From Halobellus litoreus (lineage in GTDB: Archaea > Halobacteriota > Halobacteria > Halobacteriales > Haloferacaceae), in assembly GCF_024464595.1 (NCBI RefSeq), contig NZ_JANHAW010000001.1, positions 682,001 through 746,000 on the forward strand: 64,000 bases of DNA. The letters are read 5' to 3'. The notes below the pieces were generated by a model. That model was not told the DNA's origin, did no database searches, and saw only the letters and a list, made by a program, of their open reading frames with translations. Positions 41,090 through 47,401 of the stretch are shown here, in pieces (positions within the stretch are counted from its first letter, which is position 1; the number at the start of each line of letters is the position of its first letter). A program made the translations under genes and the position numbers.

Positions 41090-41695
41090 ATGACCGAGGC
41101 CGAGGAGACCTACTACACCGAAGAACGCTGGCAGAACTGGCTCTCCCGCGTCGAAGAGGAAGAGCTCGATCCCGAGAACGAAGACTCCGCGCGATTGCTC
41201 CTGAATCTCCAGGACGACGCCGCCATCGCGGTGGCGAAGATCGTCTCCGCGTACGAGGAGGATCGGCTCGACGACGAGGAAGCGATCGAAGAACTCGAAC
41301 GCGTCCGGACGATCGTCCTCTCGGAGCCCGAACTGGACATCGAGGATGACGCCGCGCGCGAGGACAAAGAGATGCTCGTCGACGGCGTCCAGACGAGCCT
41401 CGTCTGCGTCTTCTACGCCGCGGAGGAGTACATCGTCGCCGGCGCGGCCGAGGAGGCCCCGCTCTCGGAGTACGTCGAAGCCGCGGCGGCCGCCGAGCAG
41501 GACGACGATATGGACGCCGCACTGGGCTACCTCGTGCAGGCCGGCACGCGGATCATCGTCGGCGACGAACTCGATATGGCCGTCGTCGACGACCTGGAGT
41601 ACGGCCTCGTCTCCGAGTGGGTCAACGGCCTCGACAGCCTCCAGAGCGCGATGAGCGACCCCGAAGTCGTCGAAGAAGAGGAAGACGACGACTGA
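41090..41695 (+). CDS. DUF2150 family protein
   Basis: A 201-residue, highly acidic helical protein: YYTEERWQNWLSRVEEEELDPE at the N-terminus, a helical core (LLLNLQDDAAIAVAKIVSAYE), and a second helical half ending in an acidic tail. It matches the archaeal DUF2150 pattern. No catalytic motif is visible; TTTGAATC lies about 25-32 nt upstream. Solitary gene. Confidence 0.85.
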   Translation: MTEAEETYYTEERWQNWLSRVEEEELDPENEDSARLLLNLQDDAAIAVAKIVSAYEEDRLDDEEAIEELERVRTIVLSEPELDIEDDAAREDKEMLVDGVQTSLVCVFYAAEEYIVAGAAEEAPLSEYVEAAAAAEQDDDMDAALGYLVQAGTRIIVGDELDMAVVDDLEYGLVSEWVNGLDSLQSAMSDPEVVEEEEDDD

Positions 41696-41788
41696 AACCT
41701 GAGCGGAGCCGACGTCACTCGTTCCGGCCTCGGTTCGTCCCCCGTCTCGGCGGCAACGTTTTTATCCGGTAGTCGCCGAATCGGAACC

Positions 41789-43573
41789 ATGTCTCTCCGA
41801 GACGACGACAGGGCCGTGACCGTGCAGATCGGCGCGGTCCTGTTGCTCGGGTTTCTCGTCGTCTCGCTGTCGCTGTACCAGGCGACCGTCGTCCCGAACG
41901 AGAACCGCCAGGTCGAGTTCCAGCACAACCAGCGCGTGCAGGCGGATATGCAACAGGTCAGGAACGCCATCCTCGGGACGGCCGCGACGGGATCGTCAGC
42001 ACCGACCGGCGTCGAACTCGGGACGCGCTATCCGACGCGCGTCGTCGCCGTGAACCCCGGCCCGCCGAGCGGGACGCTCTCGACTGCGGACCTCGGAACC
42101 ATCCGGATCGAGAACGCGACGGCCGACGATGAGTCGACGGCGGGTCCCGACTACCCCGAGACGGCGGACTTCTGGGACGGCGACACCACGCGCACCTACA
42201 CCACGAAGTCGCTGGTCTACCGACCGGACTACGCGAACTACGACGCCGCCCCGACGACGGTCTACGAGAACGGGGTCGTGTACAACCGCTTCGACTCGGG
42301 GACCCTCACGCGGACCGGGCAACCGATCGTCGCCGGGAAACGGATCTCACTCGTCGCGCTCTCGGGGAACCTCTCGCGCGGCGGGGCCAGCACGCTCTCG
42401 ATGAATCCGCGGGCGGTGAGCACCTCGACACGGACGATCAGCGTCTCGAACGTCGCGGAAGGCGAGAACGTCTCGGTCTTCGTCCCCTCGCGGCTGAACG
42501 CGCAGTCGTGGACGGACCTGCTGAACGAGACCGGCGAGTACGACCCGGCTGCCGACCCCGATAACGACGCGTACGTCTACCGGGTCGAGAACGTCGAGAA
42601 CGGCGGACAGGACGGCGTCGAACTGTTCTTCGAGCCCGACGCGACCTACCAGCTGAAGCTCTCGAAGGTCGGCGTCGGGAGCGGCGTCGGCGACACCGAG
42701 CCGGCGTACCTGACGAGCGTCGACGACCTCGAGTCGAACCCCTTCGAGAGTCGCACTTATCCGTTCACGGTCGAGTTGCGCGACAAGTACAACAATCCCA
42801 TCGGACGCAGCGTCGAGGCCGGGAGCGAGGAGACGACGATTCCGGACGGCGTGGTTCTCGAACCGGGACGCTACCGCTATCGGTACACCGCGCCCGACAG
42901 TTCGGCGGCGAGTTCGGACTCGATTGGCGTGACGTTCCTGACTGAGTCCAGCGATCCCGTCTACGACGTCGGGAACCCATCTTTCGAGGGAGAGCGCGTG
43001 GAAAACGTGGAGTACGACGTGGACATCCAAGCGGCGGGTGGGGGTGGTGACGGTGGGGGTGGCGACGGCACAGGTCCGCTCGCCTTGCAGGCAGGCAGTG
43101 GCGAAGCGAACGCGAACGGAGGTGAATCGACTGGAATTCAGTTCGTGATGAATAACGAGGGAAGCGAGGCAGTGACGATCGAGAGCATCGAACTGTCCGA
43201 TCCCTCAAACACTGCGTCGCTGGTGTACGAAAGCAACGGCGGTGACGGTGACGGACAAAACGAAGTGTTCGTCGACGTCGGCGATAACGGCGCCAACACA
43301 AACGATCCGGAGGACGGATACTACGATTCTGGCGACGGGAACGGAAACAATAACAACTGGCAAACCGGGACGACCGGCACACTCGACGACTCGGCACAGT
43401 TATCCGGATCCGAGTCTGCGCGGGTGTACATCTACCGATTTTACCAGTCACGAAGTGGCGCGGGGAGCAGCACGACGGCAGATATGACTGGTGAGAGTAT
43501 TACAGTTAGATTCACATACACTGTAAACGGCAATGAGTACACGGAAAGTTACGACGTAACCGCTTCGGCGTAG
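41789..43573 (+). CDS. Large surface protein with pilin-like N-terminal anchor
   Basis: A 594-residue protein. Residues 14-33 are hydrophobic after a short basic/acidic tip (R-A-V-T-V-Q-I-G), followed by a charged helix (VPNENRQVEFQHNQRVQADMQQ), as in archaeal type IV pilin-like proteins processed by PibD. Residues about 50-430 are Ser/Thr/Asp-rich beta domains. The C-terminal domain (about 430-594) is Asn/Gly/Asp-rich and its codons are much less GC3-biased than the rest, e.g. near 43500-43560. It may be a pilin-like adhesin or assembly protein working with the next gene, which starts 64 nt later. Confidence 0.7.
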   Translation: MSLRDDDRAVTVQIGAVLLLGFLVVSLSLYQATVVPNENRQVEFQHNQRVQADMQQVRNAILGTAATGSSAPTGVELGTRYPTRVVAVNPGPPSGTLSTADLGTIRIENATADDESTAGPDYPETADFWDGDTTRTYTTKSLVYRPDYANYDAAPTTVYENGVVYNRFDSGTLTRTGQPIVAGKRISLVALSGNLSRGGASTLSMNPRAVSTSTRTISVSNVAEGENVSVFVPSRLNAQSWTDLLNETGEYDPAADPDNDAYVYRVENVENGGQDGVELFFEPDATYQLKLSKVGVGSGVGDTEPAYLTSVDDLESNPFESRTYPFTVELRDKYNNPIGRSVEAGSEETTIPDGVVLEPGRYRYRYTAPDSSAASSDSIGVTFLTESSDPVYDVGNPSFEGERVENVEYDVDIQAAGGGGDGGGGDGTGPLALQAGSGEANANGGESTGIQFVMNNEGSEAVTIESIELSDPSNTASLVYESNGGDGDGQNEVFVDVGDNGANTNDPEDGYYDSGDGNGNNNNWQTGTTGTLDDSAQLSGSESARVYIYRFYQSRSGAGSSTTADMTGESITVRFTYTVNGNEYTESYDVTASA

Positions 43574-43637
43574 ATACACTATCAGGGCTGAAATTTAGAA
43601 GGGACATTTTATCAGAGTACCACGGATATAGCCGCGA

Positions 43638-45986
43638 GTGAGCGGTCCGCTACCTACTACTGTCAACCGCGCCCAAACAGAGTCCCTCGGGAGCCTGCTC
43701 CTCGTCGCGGTGGTCGTCGTCAGCGGAGCGACCTTCGGCGCGTACTACGTCGCCTCGACGAGTGGCGGTGGTGCGGGCGGGTCGGCGGGCGGTGCCGGCG
43801 GTGCGGCAGGGTCGACGGCGGACTTTACGCTGTCTGCGAGTGAGGAAACGCTCCAACTCGAACACAACGGCGGGCCGTCGTTCTCGGTCGACGACCTTCG
43901 CGTGACCGTCAGGAACGACTCCGGGGAGTTCTCGTACGCCTTCGCTGACGGACAGATCCGCGGCGACGCGAACGGGCAGTTCGACCCCGGAGAGACGTGG
44001 CAACTGGCGTGGGCACAGTCCGCCGGTGCGGACGTCACTGTCTCGCTCGTCGACGACGACGCGGAGACGCTCCTGCTTCAGGAGACGGTCTCGATCACCG
44101 AGAAGTCGACTGTTCGCCCGGCCGACCTCGCACAGGGAGAGACAGCATCTGACGGCGGGAGTCTGCCTCCGGGTGATGAAGACGGCAGCGACCAGACTCC
44201 GGGCGATGGCGAGGATACCGACGAGGCGGAGAAGCCTTCAGGGCCGTGGTTAGACGTCGACGACGACGGCGAGTACGAGACCGCCGACGGCGACGTAACC
44301 GTCGACCTCTCGTCCGGGACGGTCCCCGGCAGTTACTCCGAGACGGCGTCGTCGGCCACGCTTCGCGTTCCGGACGACGTAACGGTCGAGACAGGGCGGA
44401 ACGCGATCGATCTGAGCGCCGAAAACGTACGTCTCGCCGGCACGCTACGAACGAAGGGTTCGGTCGCGCTCAACGTGCCCGGGTACGTGGCTCTTCCCGG
44501 AGGCACGATCGACAATGCGGGCGGATGGAACAGTGTCACGGTGAAATCAGGCGATGACCGTATCACCGCCAGCAGTGCATCCATTCAGTCGAGAGGAAGC
44601 ATCTCGATATCCGGAGCCCACGGCGTACAGATGACGGAGTCCGTCGTCGACAACACCGCCAACTGGAACAGTATCAGCATCAAGTCCGGCGACGGGGCGA
44701 CCGATCTCGAAGGGACGACCGTGGCCTCGCGGGGCAGTATCTCGGTCGCGGCGTCGGACGCGGTGCGACTCCGCAACGGACAGATCAATAATCTACGGGG
44801 CTCGAACAGCGTGACCGTCAAATCCGAGCAAAGTGCCGTCGTCGCCCCTGGGGTGAGTGTCACCTCAAAAGGCTCTATTTCGATCTCTGGCTCGCAGGGC
44901 GTCCAAATGGGGTCGGCTACGATCACCAACGCCGCCGGGAGCAACAGTCTCACCGTCGCGTCCGGTGGCGGGGCAGTCGACGTTCACAACGCTGATATCG
45001 GATCGAAGGGGAGCATCTCGATCACGGGATCGACTGGCGTCGACACCACCTCCACGTCGATCGATAACGAAGCGGGGTGGAACAGCGTCACCGTCTCGAC
45101 GGACGACGGCTCGGTTTCTGGCGACCGGATGACGATCAAGTCGCAGGGAAGCGTGACCGTCAAAGCCAGTGACGGAGTTATTGCTCAAAACACGGAGATA
45201 ATCACCCGAAGTTCGGTAGCTATCAGAGGGTCGACGGCCGTCGACGTCGGCCAGTCGCTGATTACCAACGAGGAAGGTGACGGCAGTGTAACCGTGATTT
45301 CGGATACTGAGGCGGTCGACGCTGTCCGAACCCGCGTGGCCTCCGGCGGGAAGGTGTCTATCACCGCGGGGTCGTCAGTGCGCCTGACGGGAACGACGGT
45401 CGACAACACTGCGGGATGGAGCGGCGTGTACGTCACGTCCACGGACCGTCGTCTCTCGGCCCGTGAACTATCGGTCAAAACGAAGGGCGATCTCCGTCTC
45501 ACCGGGGACGAGAACGTGACGCTGACAGACGCCGAACTGGACGCCTCGGAGGGGTGGGGTAGCCTCGACGTGAGTTCCGGGAACCGCCTCGAAATCGATA
45601 ACGCGACCGCCGTCGGCAAAGGGCAGATATCGATCAGCTCGGGACGTGGCATCGACGCCACCGGGTCCACCCTCGACAACGCGGAGAGCTACAACAGCAT
45701 CTCCCTTGCAGTGAGCGATGCAGGCGATATACTGCTCGTCGAGACGACGATCCGGTCACGAGGGCACGCTTCGGCTGAAGTTCCCGTGGAGTCGAGCAAC
45801 CCCCAGGGAGAAGGTAGCGGACGTGGGAAAGGCCAGGGCCGCGGGGAGGGCACCTCAGACGACGAAAACGCTTACATCGTCGACGTCACGGACGCCATTA
45901 TCGGCGACGCGGACGGGTACTTGGAGGTCTCTCCGGAGAGCGCGGTGGTCGGCGACCCGGCATCGGGAGTCGCCGGCAGCAACTGA
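43638..45986 (+). CDS. Pilin-type anchored beta-solenoid surface protein
   Basis: A 782-residue protein starting at GTG 43638 with TTTTATC 25-31 nt upstream. Residues about 10-40 have the pilin-like pattern (R-A-Q-T-E-S-L-G-S-L-L-L hydrophobic). Residues about 55-145 resemble an archaeal pilin/DUF1628 beta sandwich (LQLEHNGGPSFSVDDLRVTV ... FDPGETWQLAWA). From residue 292 on, nine 46-residue units (one 45, one 21-residue half) repeat the pattern DN..GWNSVTVKSGD...TV.SKGSISISGS.GV...T, i.e. two 23-residue coils each, the size of right-handed beta-helix rungs. The C-terminus is Gly/Arg-rich then acidic. Likely a surface adhesin or filament cap. Confidence 0.72.
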   Translation: MSGPLPTTVNRAQTESLGSLLLVAVVVVSGATFGAYYVASTSGGGAGGSAGGAGGAAGSTADFTLSASEETLQLEHNGGPSFSVDDLRVTVRNDSGEFSYAFADGQIRGDANGQFDPGETWQLAWAQSAGADVTVSLVDDDAETLLLQETVSITEKSTVRPADLAQGETASDGGSLPPGDEDGSDQTPGDGEDTDEAEKPSGPWLDVDDDGEYETADGDVTVDLSSGTVPGSYSETASSATLRVPDDVTVETGRNAIDLSAENVRLAGTLRTKGSVALNVPGYVALPGGTIDNAGGWNSVTVKSGDDRITASSASIQSRGSISISGAHGVQMTESVVDNTANWNSISIKSGDGATDLEGTTVASRGSISVAASDAVRLRNGQINNLRGSNSVTVKSEQSAVVAPGVSVTSKGSISISGSQGVQMGSATITNAAGSNSLTVASGGGAVDVHNADIGSKGSISITGSTGVDTTSTSIDNEAGWNSVTVSTDDGSVSGDRMTIKSQGSVTVKASDGVIAQNTEIITRSSVAIRGSTAVDVGQSLITNEEGDGSVTVISDTEAVDAVRTRVASGGKVSITAGSSVRLTGTTVDNTAGWSGVYVTSTDRRLSARELSVKTKGDLRLTGDENVTLTDAELDASEGWGSLDVSSGNRLEIDNATAVGKGQISISSGRGIDATGSTLDNAESYNSISLAVSDAGDILLVETTIRSRGHASAEVPVESSNPQGEGSGRGKGQGRGEGTSDDENAYIVDVTDAIIGDADGYLEVSPESAVVGDPASGVAGSN
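44511..45782 (+). repeat. Nine 138-nt coding repeats (46 residues) of the beta-solenoid
   Basis: Units begin at codons 292, 338, 384, 430, 476, then a 21-residue half unit at 522, then 543, 589, 635 and 680 (partial). DNA identity is low but protein spacing is exact, showing old duplication under structural constraint. Each unit is an A coil (NSVTVKSGD..) and a B coil (SISISGS.GV..). The half unit at 522-542 is a B-like coil, so the A/B alternation breaks once. Confidence 0.85.
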
Positions 45987-46063: not shown

Positions 46064-47401
46064 ATGACTGCCGTCGGCATCGACGCCATCGAACTCTGGA
46101 CGGGTAAACTGCGACTCGATCTGCCGAATACCTTCGCGCCGGTGAAGGGCGAAGACCCCGGCAAGTACACGAAAGGAATCGGCATCGAGTACTCCTCGCT
46201 CCCGGACGTCTACGAGGACATCGTGACGATGGGCGCGAACGCGGCGAAGCGCCTGATGGACCGCGAGGGACTCACCCCCGACGACATCGGTCGGATCGAC
46301 GTCGCGACCGAGTCCGCCTTCGACAACTCCAAGCCGGTCTCGACGTACGTCGCCGGCTGTTTAGAGCAGGTCTACGACGGCGACTTCCACCACGCGAACA
46401 AGGGCGAGCGGAAGTTCGCGTGCCTGTCGGGCACGCAGGTCATCGACGACGCGTACAACTGGATCCGCGCGGGTCGGAACCGCGGGCGCGCGGCGCTCGT
46501 GATCGCGACCGACACGGCGCTGTACGAGCGCGGCGACCCCGGCGAGGCCACCCAAGGGGCCGGCGCGGTGGCGATGCTCGTCGACGAGGACCCCGACGTC
46601 GTCGCGCTCTCGACCGAACAGGGCTACGGGAGCGCCGACGAGACCGACTTTCTGAAACCCAACCAGCAGTTCCCGAGCGTCGACGGCAAGCGCTCGATCC
46701 AGGTGTATCTCGCGCGGATGCGCGAGGCCCTCGAGGACTACGAGTCAGTCGCCGGCGACACCCACCCCGACGATTTCGTCTACTTCCCGTTCCACACGCC
46801 GTACCCGGGAATGGTCCGGAAGGCCGCGTTGCTCGGGTATCGCCACATCACTCGCGGCACCGACATCGAGGACGCACTCGCCGACGACATCGGGATGCAG
46901 CCGCGCGAAGCCGACTTCGCGGAGTGGGACGACTACGAGGAGGCGATCCGGGCGTACATGGACGAACTGAAGGAGACGCGTCGGTACCGCGAGTGGTACG
47001 AGCGAGCGATCGATCCGACGGTCCGGATCGCCGGACAGGTCGGCAACTGGTACACCGGATCGGTCCACCTCGCGCGGCTGTCGGCGCTCCGTGCCGCCGC
47101 CGAGGAAGACGCCGACCTCGTCGGCGAGAAACTGCTCGTCGGCTCTTACGGGTCCGGCGCGCAGGCGGAGATTCACGCCGAGACCGTACAGGACGGCTGG
47201 CGCGAAGGCGTCGAGGCCGTCGACGTCGAAGCCCGCCTCGACAATCGCTACGACCTCTCGTACGAGGAGTACGAACTCGTTCACGACGTGCACAACCACG
47301 AGAAGGAGGTCGAGGTCGACGAGTTCACACAGCCCTCCGGCGAGTTCGTCTTCACCGGTTGGGGACGGATGAACGAACGACGCTACGAATACGTCGAGTA
47401 G
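46064..47401 (+). CDS. hmgB: Hydroxymethylglutaryl-CoA synthase
   Basis: A 445-residue archaeal HMG-CoA synthase. Catalytic Glu83 (ATESAFDNSKP), Cys120 (FACLSGTQ) and the His in FPFHTPYPGMVRKA are present. It condenses acetyl-CoA and acetoacetyl-CoA for the mevalonate route to archaeal lipids. CAATAAG about 25-30 nt upstream supports ATG 46064. Length is normal for haloarchaea. mvaS is the bacterial-style name. Confidence 0.94.
   Translation: MTAVGIDAIELWTGKLRLDLPNTFAPVKGEDPGKYTKGIGIEYSSLPDVYEDIVTMGANAAKRLMDREGLTPDDIGRIDVATESAFDNSKPVSTYVAGCLEQVYDGDFHHANKGERKFACLSGTQVIDDAYNWIRAGRNRGRAALVIATDTALYERGDPGEATQGAGAVAMLVDEDPDVVALSTEQGYGSADETDFLKPNQQFPSVDGKRSIQVYLARMREALEDYESVAGDTHPDDFVYFPFHTPYPGMVRKAALLGYRHITRGTDIEDALADDIGMQPREADFAEWDDYEEAIRAYMDELKETRRYREWYERAIDPTVRIAGQVGNWYTGSVHLARLSALRAAAEEDADLVGEKLLVGSYGSGAQAEIHAETVQDGWREGVEAVDVEARLDNRYDLSYEEYELVHDVHNHEKEVEVDEFTQPSGEFVFTGWGRMNERRYEYVE

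Follow-up and report, generated by a model that had tools for sequence, protein, structure and literature searches.

Two adjacent genes in a conserved genomic slot

We analysed a stretch of 64,000 nucleotides (nt) of Halobellus litoreus (contig C1, positions 682001-746000; the window), in which two neighbouring genes, here called gene 1 and gene 2, encode proteins that both consist of a conserved N-terminal carrier and a C-terminal module exchanged between lineages. The genes lie on the same strand with a gap of 64 nt (43574-43637), as a preliminary description of this DNA had noted. The features of the locus are listed below (positions are those of the window).

41090..41695, + strand: DUF2150 gene, upstream border of the slot (PF09920, E-value 6.5e-66)
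41759..41765, + strand: TATA-like box TTTTTAT, about 30 nt 5' of the ATG of gene 1
41789..43573, + strand: gene 1, pilin-like surface protein of 594 amino acids, ATG start, with class-wide homologues
41789..41815, + strand: leader of gene 1, ending in R8-A9, with a predicted prepilin peptidase site between A9 and V10 (RAVT)
41789..42988, + strand: constant region of gene 1, residues 1-400 (84-86% identity to the two nearest relatives)
43031..43573, + strand: tail of gene 1, residues 415-594, a Gly-rich linker and a haloarchaeal C-terminal module (named VEF here)
43607..43612, + strand: TATA-like box TTTTAT, about 31 nt 5' of the GTG of gene 2, within the 64-nt gap
43638..45986, + strand: gene 2, predicted modular pilin of 782 amino acids, GTG start
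43638..43673, + strand: leader of gene 2, ending in R11-A12, with a predicted prepilin peptidase site between A12 and Q13 (RAQT)
43821..44093, + strand: predicted Pilin_N-type beta-sandwich of gene 2, residues 62-152 (family matches, profile and model)
44370..45782, + strand: beta-helix solenoid of gene 2, residues 245-715, with a 46-residue repeat (two three-strand coils)
46064..47401, + strand: HMG-CoA synthase, downstream border of the slot (NF041302, 874 bits; cut-off 800)

The slot of gene 1 between DUF2150 and HMG-CoA synthase is fixed, deep and class-wide. We compared 100 gene-1 loci, 80 from the same GTDB family (Haloferacaceae) and 20 from other families, which were chosen by hand from the listed matches for spread across genera and are biased to good matches. 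HMG-CoA synthase lies downstream on the strand of gene 1 in 69 of the 80 family loci and 17 of the 20 others (86 of 100); it is present with gene 1 reversed in three further loci, and no HMG-CoA synthase was found within the fetched stretch in 11. DUF2150 is found near gene 1 in 79 loci (61 of the 80 and 18 of the 20). Of the 170 family genomes, 162 have a gene 1 homologue (27 of 28 genera); among Halobacteria genomes at least 90% complete, 260 of 292 do (68 of 76 genera). A phylum-wide draw, class members included, gave matches in 204 of 295 genomes, many of those outside the class being weak or covering the N-terminal part only. Named records with gene 1 include Halobellus rarus, Halobellus sp. 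Atlit-31R, H. clavatus, H. rufus and Haloferax mucosum.

Gene 2 is less widespread: used as a single query, it matched 48 of 170 family genomes. We also ran the co-occurrence comparison that the preliminary description had proposed: 39 of the 100 loci (35 of the 80 family loci and 4 of the 20 others) have a gene-2-type domain no more than 1.5 kb from gene 1, so the objection that the genes are never adjacent in relatives fails. The adjacent domain is downstream on the same strand in 34 cases, divergent in 4 and upstream on the same strand in 1 (at L171 3775-4257 a gene-2-type domain lies 5' of gene 1, not 3'; loci are denoted by L and a number). Taken together, the slot and adjacency counts make gene 1 the constant occupant and gene 2 an optional second one. 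In the window, both genes have a TTTWWW box about 30 nt 5' of the start (TTTWWW in an 18-nt upstream stretch, 0.145% of random window positions), a distance that fits leaderless haloarchaeal transcripts. Since each gene has its own TATA-like box, co-expression of the two is not established.

In L110, L112, L114, L118 and L126, gene 1 has the opposite orientation to DUF2150 and/or HMG-CoA synthase. The five copies group in a single clade (support 100), so they apparently represent one old divergent lineage rather than a flipping segment, and we rejected an invertible switch on this ground (no search for inverted repeats was made). Tandem gene-1 homologues, two each, were seen at L173 3647-8707 and L186 3-7508.

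Conserved fronts and exchanged tails

We compared the window part by part with seven relatives, of which L071 and L072 are the nearest. Identity to L071/L072 is 98/99% for DUF2150 and 97/96% for HMG-CoA synthase at the borders, 84/86% and 74/76% for the fronts of gene 1 and gene 2, and 35/28% and 25/26% for their respective tails. For the more distant L073, DUF2150 and HMG-CoA synthase are 94% and 89% identical and the fronts of gene 1 and gene 2 are 68% and 56% identical; the tails reach 55% (gene 1) and 72% (gene 2).

Base composition changes along gene 1 as well. The G+C content at third codon positions (GC3) of the window gene 1 is 0.895 in the constant region vs 0.641 in the tail. Among the 92 loci with a gene-1 tail of at least 100 amino acids, GC3 is lower in the tail than in the front in 82 (by more than 0.1 in 30) and more than 0.1 higher in one; as a control, a difference of more than 0.1 between two parts of HMG-CoA synthase occurs in 2 of 89 loci. 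Of 100 gene-1 proteins, 10 have a GGG stretch in the front and 53 have one in the 130 residues that follow. The VEF module, which is the module of the window gene-1 tail, was identified in 37 gene-1 and 2 gene-2 homologues.

The partial correlation between the tails of the two genes is r 0.26 (permutation p 0.0004), over the 24 of 34 loci with a downstream gene 2 in which both tails have at least 60 amino acids. We rejected matched tail pairs, because the close pairs L071/L072 and L121/L127 each share the same gene-2 tail and have different gene-1 tails (for L071/L072, tail similarity is 0.59 in gene 2 and 0.14 in gene 1), which indicates mostly independent exchange.

The beta-helix solenoid and the shared module pool

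The tail of the window gene 2 is a solenoid, as the preliminary description had recognised: its self-identity is 24.3% at lag 46 vs a mean of 9.1% over lags 10-139, and the structure model has a right-handed beta-helix at about 245-715, mostly with a predicted local distance difference test score (pLDDT) of 84-96. Presumably the helix is about 10 nm long, given the usual rise per coil and about 20 coils. In the VIA comparison, the solenoid matched 2uve, an exopolygalacturonase (Z 12.9, root-mean-square deviation (rmsd) 4.1, 292 residues aligned, 11% identity), and 4kh3, titled 'bacterial self-associating protein' (Z 10.9, rmsd 15.0), which we take to be Antigen 43; most VIA rows span residues 53-158, so the solenoid is thinly compared. 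Pfam reads relatives of the solenoid as haemagglutinin repeat or generic beta-helix. It resembles adhesins of the Antigen 43 and filamentous-haemagglutinin type in its right-handed beta-helix and in these haemagglutinin-repeat matches, but no autotransporter or two-partner-secretion part was found (no autotransporter barrel or secretion domain is among the Pfam families of gene 2 at E up to 1), and the N terminus here is of pilin type.

A profile built from the window solenoid as a single query matched L073 only, and the gene-1 tail of L107 as a single query found three proteins only. An iterated profile from the L107 tail identified 14 proteins, with no others in any reading frame of the 100 loci, so this set depends on iteration. 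The solenoid is carried by gene 2 in seven (the window, L073, L121, L124, L127, L187 and L190) and by gene 1 in seven (L082, L095, L107, L128, L130, L202 and L207), and it can be as short as about 120-230 residues in relatives. The solenoid alignment has matches in 49 of 167 family genomes; at 21 of the 30 best solenoid loci, the protein that bears the solenoid is of the gene-1 or gene-2 type. The two carriers share a single pool of modules.

We also observed the solenoid on a different surface protein (L227, L229-L234, L236 and L237). Five printed N termini of these proteins share a motif like SFSTIAGDRPVD (L236 being the loosest), no class III site was seen in those five, and no N-terminal Pfam family was found in the four that were scanned.

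The preliminary description had assigned the two proteins fixed roles, one as filament or anchor and the other as solenoid tip. This division does not hold: the predicted Pilin_N domain is on the solenoid's own gene, the solenoid is fused to gene 1 in relatives, and gene 1 occurs almost everywhere, usually with no gene 2 beside it. We rejected fixed anchor and tip roles because the solenoid rides on either gene and the tails change mostly independently.

The resemblance to 2uve, the best VIA match, raises the question of whether the solenoid is a surface-tethered enzyme, a pectinase-like beta-helix acting on polysaccharide. We consider this very improbable given the 11% identity of that match, the short and regular 46-residue repeat, the small size that the module can have in relatives and the way in which Pfam reads those relatives.

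It is also conceivable, though in our view unlikely, that gene 1 and gene 2 are functionally unrelated, the site before HMG-CoA synthase tolerating pilin-like genes and adjacency reflecting the shared site. Such an account would fit the mostly independent exchange of the tails, the TATA-like box that each gene has of its own, and the 61 of 100 loci in which gene 2 is not beside gene 1, with 16 changes in gene 2 presence required on the gene-1 tree (9 for solenoid presence; a quick tree with 32 of 98 inner branches open). It is at odds with the downstream, same-strand position of gene 2 in 34 of the 39 adjacent cases, with the use of the same modules in both gene slots, and with the spacing of the genes, which overlap or are at most 15 nt apart in 8 of 23 refined pairs (gaps from -29 to 596 nt, median 81).

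Predicted class III signals at both N termini

The N terminus of gene 1 reads MSLRDDDRA followed by VTVQIGAVLLL, and that of gene 2 reads MSGPLPTTVNRA followed by QTESLGSLLLV; in each, a leader ending in R-A precedes a hydrophobic helix. The short charged tip and pilin-like helix noted earlier are present in both proteins; the tip of gene 2 is weakly charged.

In the gene-1 alignment (55 rows, the window and 54 of the first 60 loci), R8 is found in 55 of 55, position 9 is A (32) or G (23), and position 10 is V, Q or A. In the gene-2 alignment (25 rows, the window and 24 of 30 loci with a strong gene-2-type domain), R11 and Q13 are found in 25 of 25 and position 12 is A (18) or G (7). For the relatives, a script that seeks the hydrophobic helix set the start codons. 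The gene-1 alignment leaves out L105, L106, L111 and L125, which have no refined start, and L104 and L113, which have long leaders and carry D-R-A/G before the helix all the same; the six loci outside the gene-2 alignment (L108, L115, L118, L124, L126 and L130) all have R-A/G-Q before the helix. The signal in a single protein alone would be weak evidence, but conservation to this degree among the aligned sequences is not due to chance.

The window sites RAVT (gene 1) and RAQT (gene 2) match archaeal processing sites printed in PMC4371748, namely RAVS in Haloferax volcanii PilA4-6 and RAQI in M. maripaludis EpdA. We conclude that both proteins carry a predicted prepilin-peptidase-type signal, which forms the conserved carrier together with the hydrophobic helix and a constant ectodomain.

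Domains of the two carriers

Neither window protein reaches any Pfam cut-off, and the assignment of domains draws on their families. For gene 2, 22 of 25 members match Pilin_N (PF07790), followed in many by PKD-type or other immunoglobulin (Ig)-like domains, and the family profile finds 8fj5, a type IV pilus subunit of H. volcanii, with an E-value of 2.6e-9 (positions 8-118). AlphaFold modelled gene 2 with a mean pLDDT of 76.8, placing a beta-sandwich at 62-152 (pLDDT about 85) after a low-confidence helix at 11-33. Foldseek ranks 8fj5 first for this model (E-value 4.4e-3, probability 1.00), with no match at an E-value of 0.001 or below. In the VIA comparison 8fj5 aligns over 89 residues with Z 9.1 and rmsd 2.9; lamin Ig domains reach an equally high score (Z 9.8), so the fold class is unspecific and the sequence profile carries the Pilin_N claim. 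On profile and model, the first globular domain of gene 2 is a predicted Pilin_N domain, which gives the protein the predicted layout of a modular pilin, i.e. Pilin_N at 62-152 and then a beta-helix at 245-715 that is not pilus-specific.

The constant region of gene 1 is of a different kind. When the members were searched one by one with Pfam, Big_1 was found in 28 of 55, and in many homologues a Big_1-type Ig domain lies near the end of the constant region. As for the DUF7289/DUF7266 families of Pfam, nine of the 55 members match DUF7289 at an E-value of 0.01 or better (best 1.8e-5), whereas the window gene 1 scores 13.7 bits, below the cut-off of 27. As no pilin globular domain is recognisable in gene 1, we term it pilin-like and not a pilin.

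Proposed modular pilins and assembly in trans

The preliminary description had also stated that the locus lacks its own assembly ATPase and might use pilus machinery encoded elsewhere; the genome does have such machinery outside the window. It contains six T2SSE and eight T2SSF matches, all on contig C2, one Peptidase_A24 match at C1:1180439, and five Pilin_N matches; no T2SSE, T2SSF, Peptidase_A24 or Pilin_N match lies within the 64-kb window (C1:682001-746000). Three clear Pilin_N genes lie in a row at C1:757976-759062, about 12 kb past the end of the window, and these are possible candidates for the major pilins of the same genome. Haloarchaeal ATPase/TadC modules have been proposed to serve pilins encoded in trans (PMC4858521).

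We favour the reading that these genes encode haloarchaeal modular pilins at a variable display slot, probably minor subunits through which a filament assembled in trans presents adhesive modules. Both proteins would be exported and then cleaved after R-A by the one prepilin peptidase of the genome; in low copy number they would join a filament made by a PilB/PilC pair encoded elsewhere. Gene 2 would enter the filament via Pilin_N and project a rigid beta-helix of about 20 coils; gene 1 would be a companion subunit, possibly at the tip or base, from which an Ig-type domain and another module project. Such modules might mediate cell-cell or cell-surface binding, or self-association, and swapping them would alter specificity. 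More tentatively, the two pilin-type carriers at this class-wide slot may trade adhesive modules with each other and between lineages, such that filament specificity (recognition of partner, surface or virus) would evolve through the replacement of cassettes on unchanging carriers.

Several observations weigh against a role as modular pilins. Pilin_N is found in only one of the 55 gene-1 members (E-value 0.0056) and not in the window gene 1, and the structure model of gene 1 is of low confidence (pLDDT 39) and unusable, so gene 1 may not polymerise. The window gene 2 alone scores 15.2 bits vs the Pilin_N cut-off of 25.2, so the case for a pilin rests on its family and the model. No gene 2 was found beside gene 1 in 61 of the 100 loci, and the mostly independent swapping of tails disfavours an obligate matched pair of modules. 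In nine of the 30 best solenoid loci the solenoid is on another surface protein, with neither gene 1 nor gene 2 detected, so the solenoid is not pilin-specific.

Some of these points would suit membrane-anchored surface proteins, which would use the class III signal for export and anchoring and project their modules through the S-layer as monomers, much as the substrate-binding proteins of Sulfolobales that bear class III signals. No pilin globular domain is detectable in gene 1, its own genome contains one gene copy, no assembly gene is linked, and some prepilin-peptidase substrates are described as binding proteins, not pilins (PMC4371748). We nevertheless regard this alternative as unlikely, since the Pilin_N fold of gene 2 is closest to a solved pilus subunit and the genome has several PilB/PilC-type genes, sets of which have been proposed to serve pilins in trans (PMC4858521).

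Comparison with known systems

Modular pilins that carry adhesive modules are established in bacteria, including the PilA/PilC pair of Streptococcus sanguinis, minor pilins that work together (PMC8179133, PMC9934059). The word 'archaea' is absent from the main text of PMC8179133, and the review PMC10191384 describes the same modular strategy for bacterial species. If the H. litoreus proteins are modular pilins, they would resemble S. sanguinis PilB and PilA/PilC in combining a class III signal and a pilin module with a grafted, unrelated and often adhesive module, in having many modules on one kind of carrier, and in including minor pilins that work as partners. Unlike in S. sanguinis, the carriers here are archaeal (predicted Pilin_N in gene 2 and an unnamed constant region in gene 1), the stand-alone slot is far from assembly genes, the same modules move between two neighbouring carriers, and the system is known from sequence.

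H. volcanii PilA shares with them the type of processing site (RAVS), the globular fold (gene 2, 8fj5) and genes unlinked to pilB/pilC (PMC4371748); the 8fj5 chain, however, has 145 residues, to which gene 2 adds about 600, and the ectodomain of gene 1 is different. Thermus thermophilus ComZ is likewise described as a minor pilin with a large beta-solenoid, thought to bind DNA (PMC8179133). By that description, to which our comparison is limited, the ComZ solenoid is inserted in the pilin sheet, whereas here it follows the predicted pilin domain.

We found no paper on this locus in the open-licence full-text literature. For most prepilin-peptidase substrates of haloarchaea, no role is known (for H. 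volcanii, PMC4371748 gives 47 predicted substrates, six of which are adhesion pilins), and one is now given a family and a fixed class-wide address. In the proposed arrangement, a nearly universal carrier is joined in some genomes by a second pilin, and they present exchangeable and probably adhesive modules; the principle known from bacterial modular pilins would thereby reach a variable locus in Halobacteria. The constant fronts and exchanged tails suggest a display site with which these microbes could alter the targets that their surface filaments adhere to. Removing or exchanging one tail would offer a way to test partner choice, aggregation or virus binding in these archaea.

Relatives on mobile elements

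No relative of gene 1 was found among the viral contigs searched and none of gene 2 among the plasmids or phages searched, while gene 1 matches six plasmid records, all at less than 60% identity. We rejected a viral, phage or plasmid origin of the genes on these results. At L207 6004-8313, on plasmid pHsi204 of Haloarcula sinaiiensis, a gene-1 homologue with a solenoid tail is annotated 'hemagglutinin repeat-containing protein' and sits among plasmid transposase genes. We note that this plasmid copy is a possible vehicle of tail transfer.

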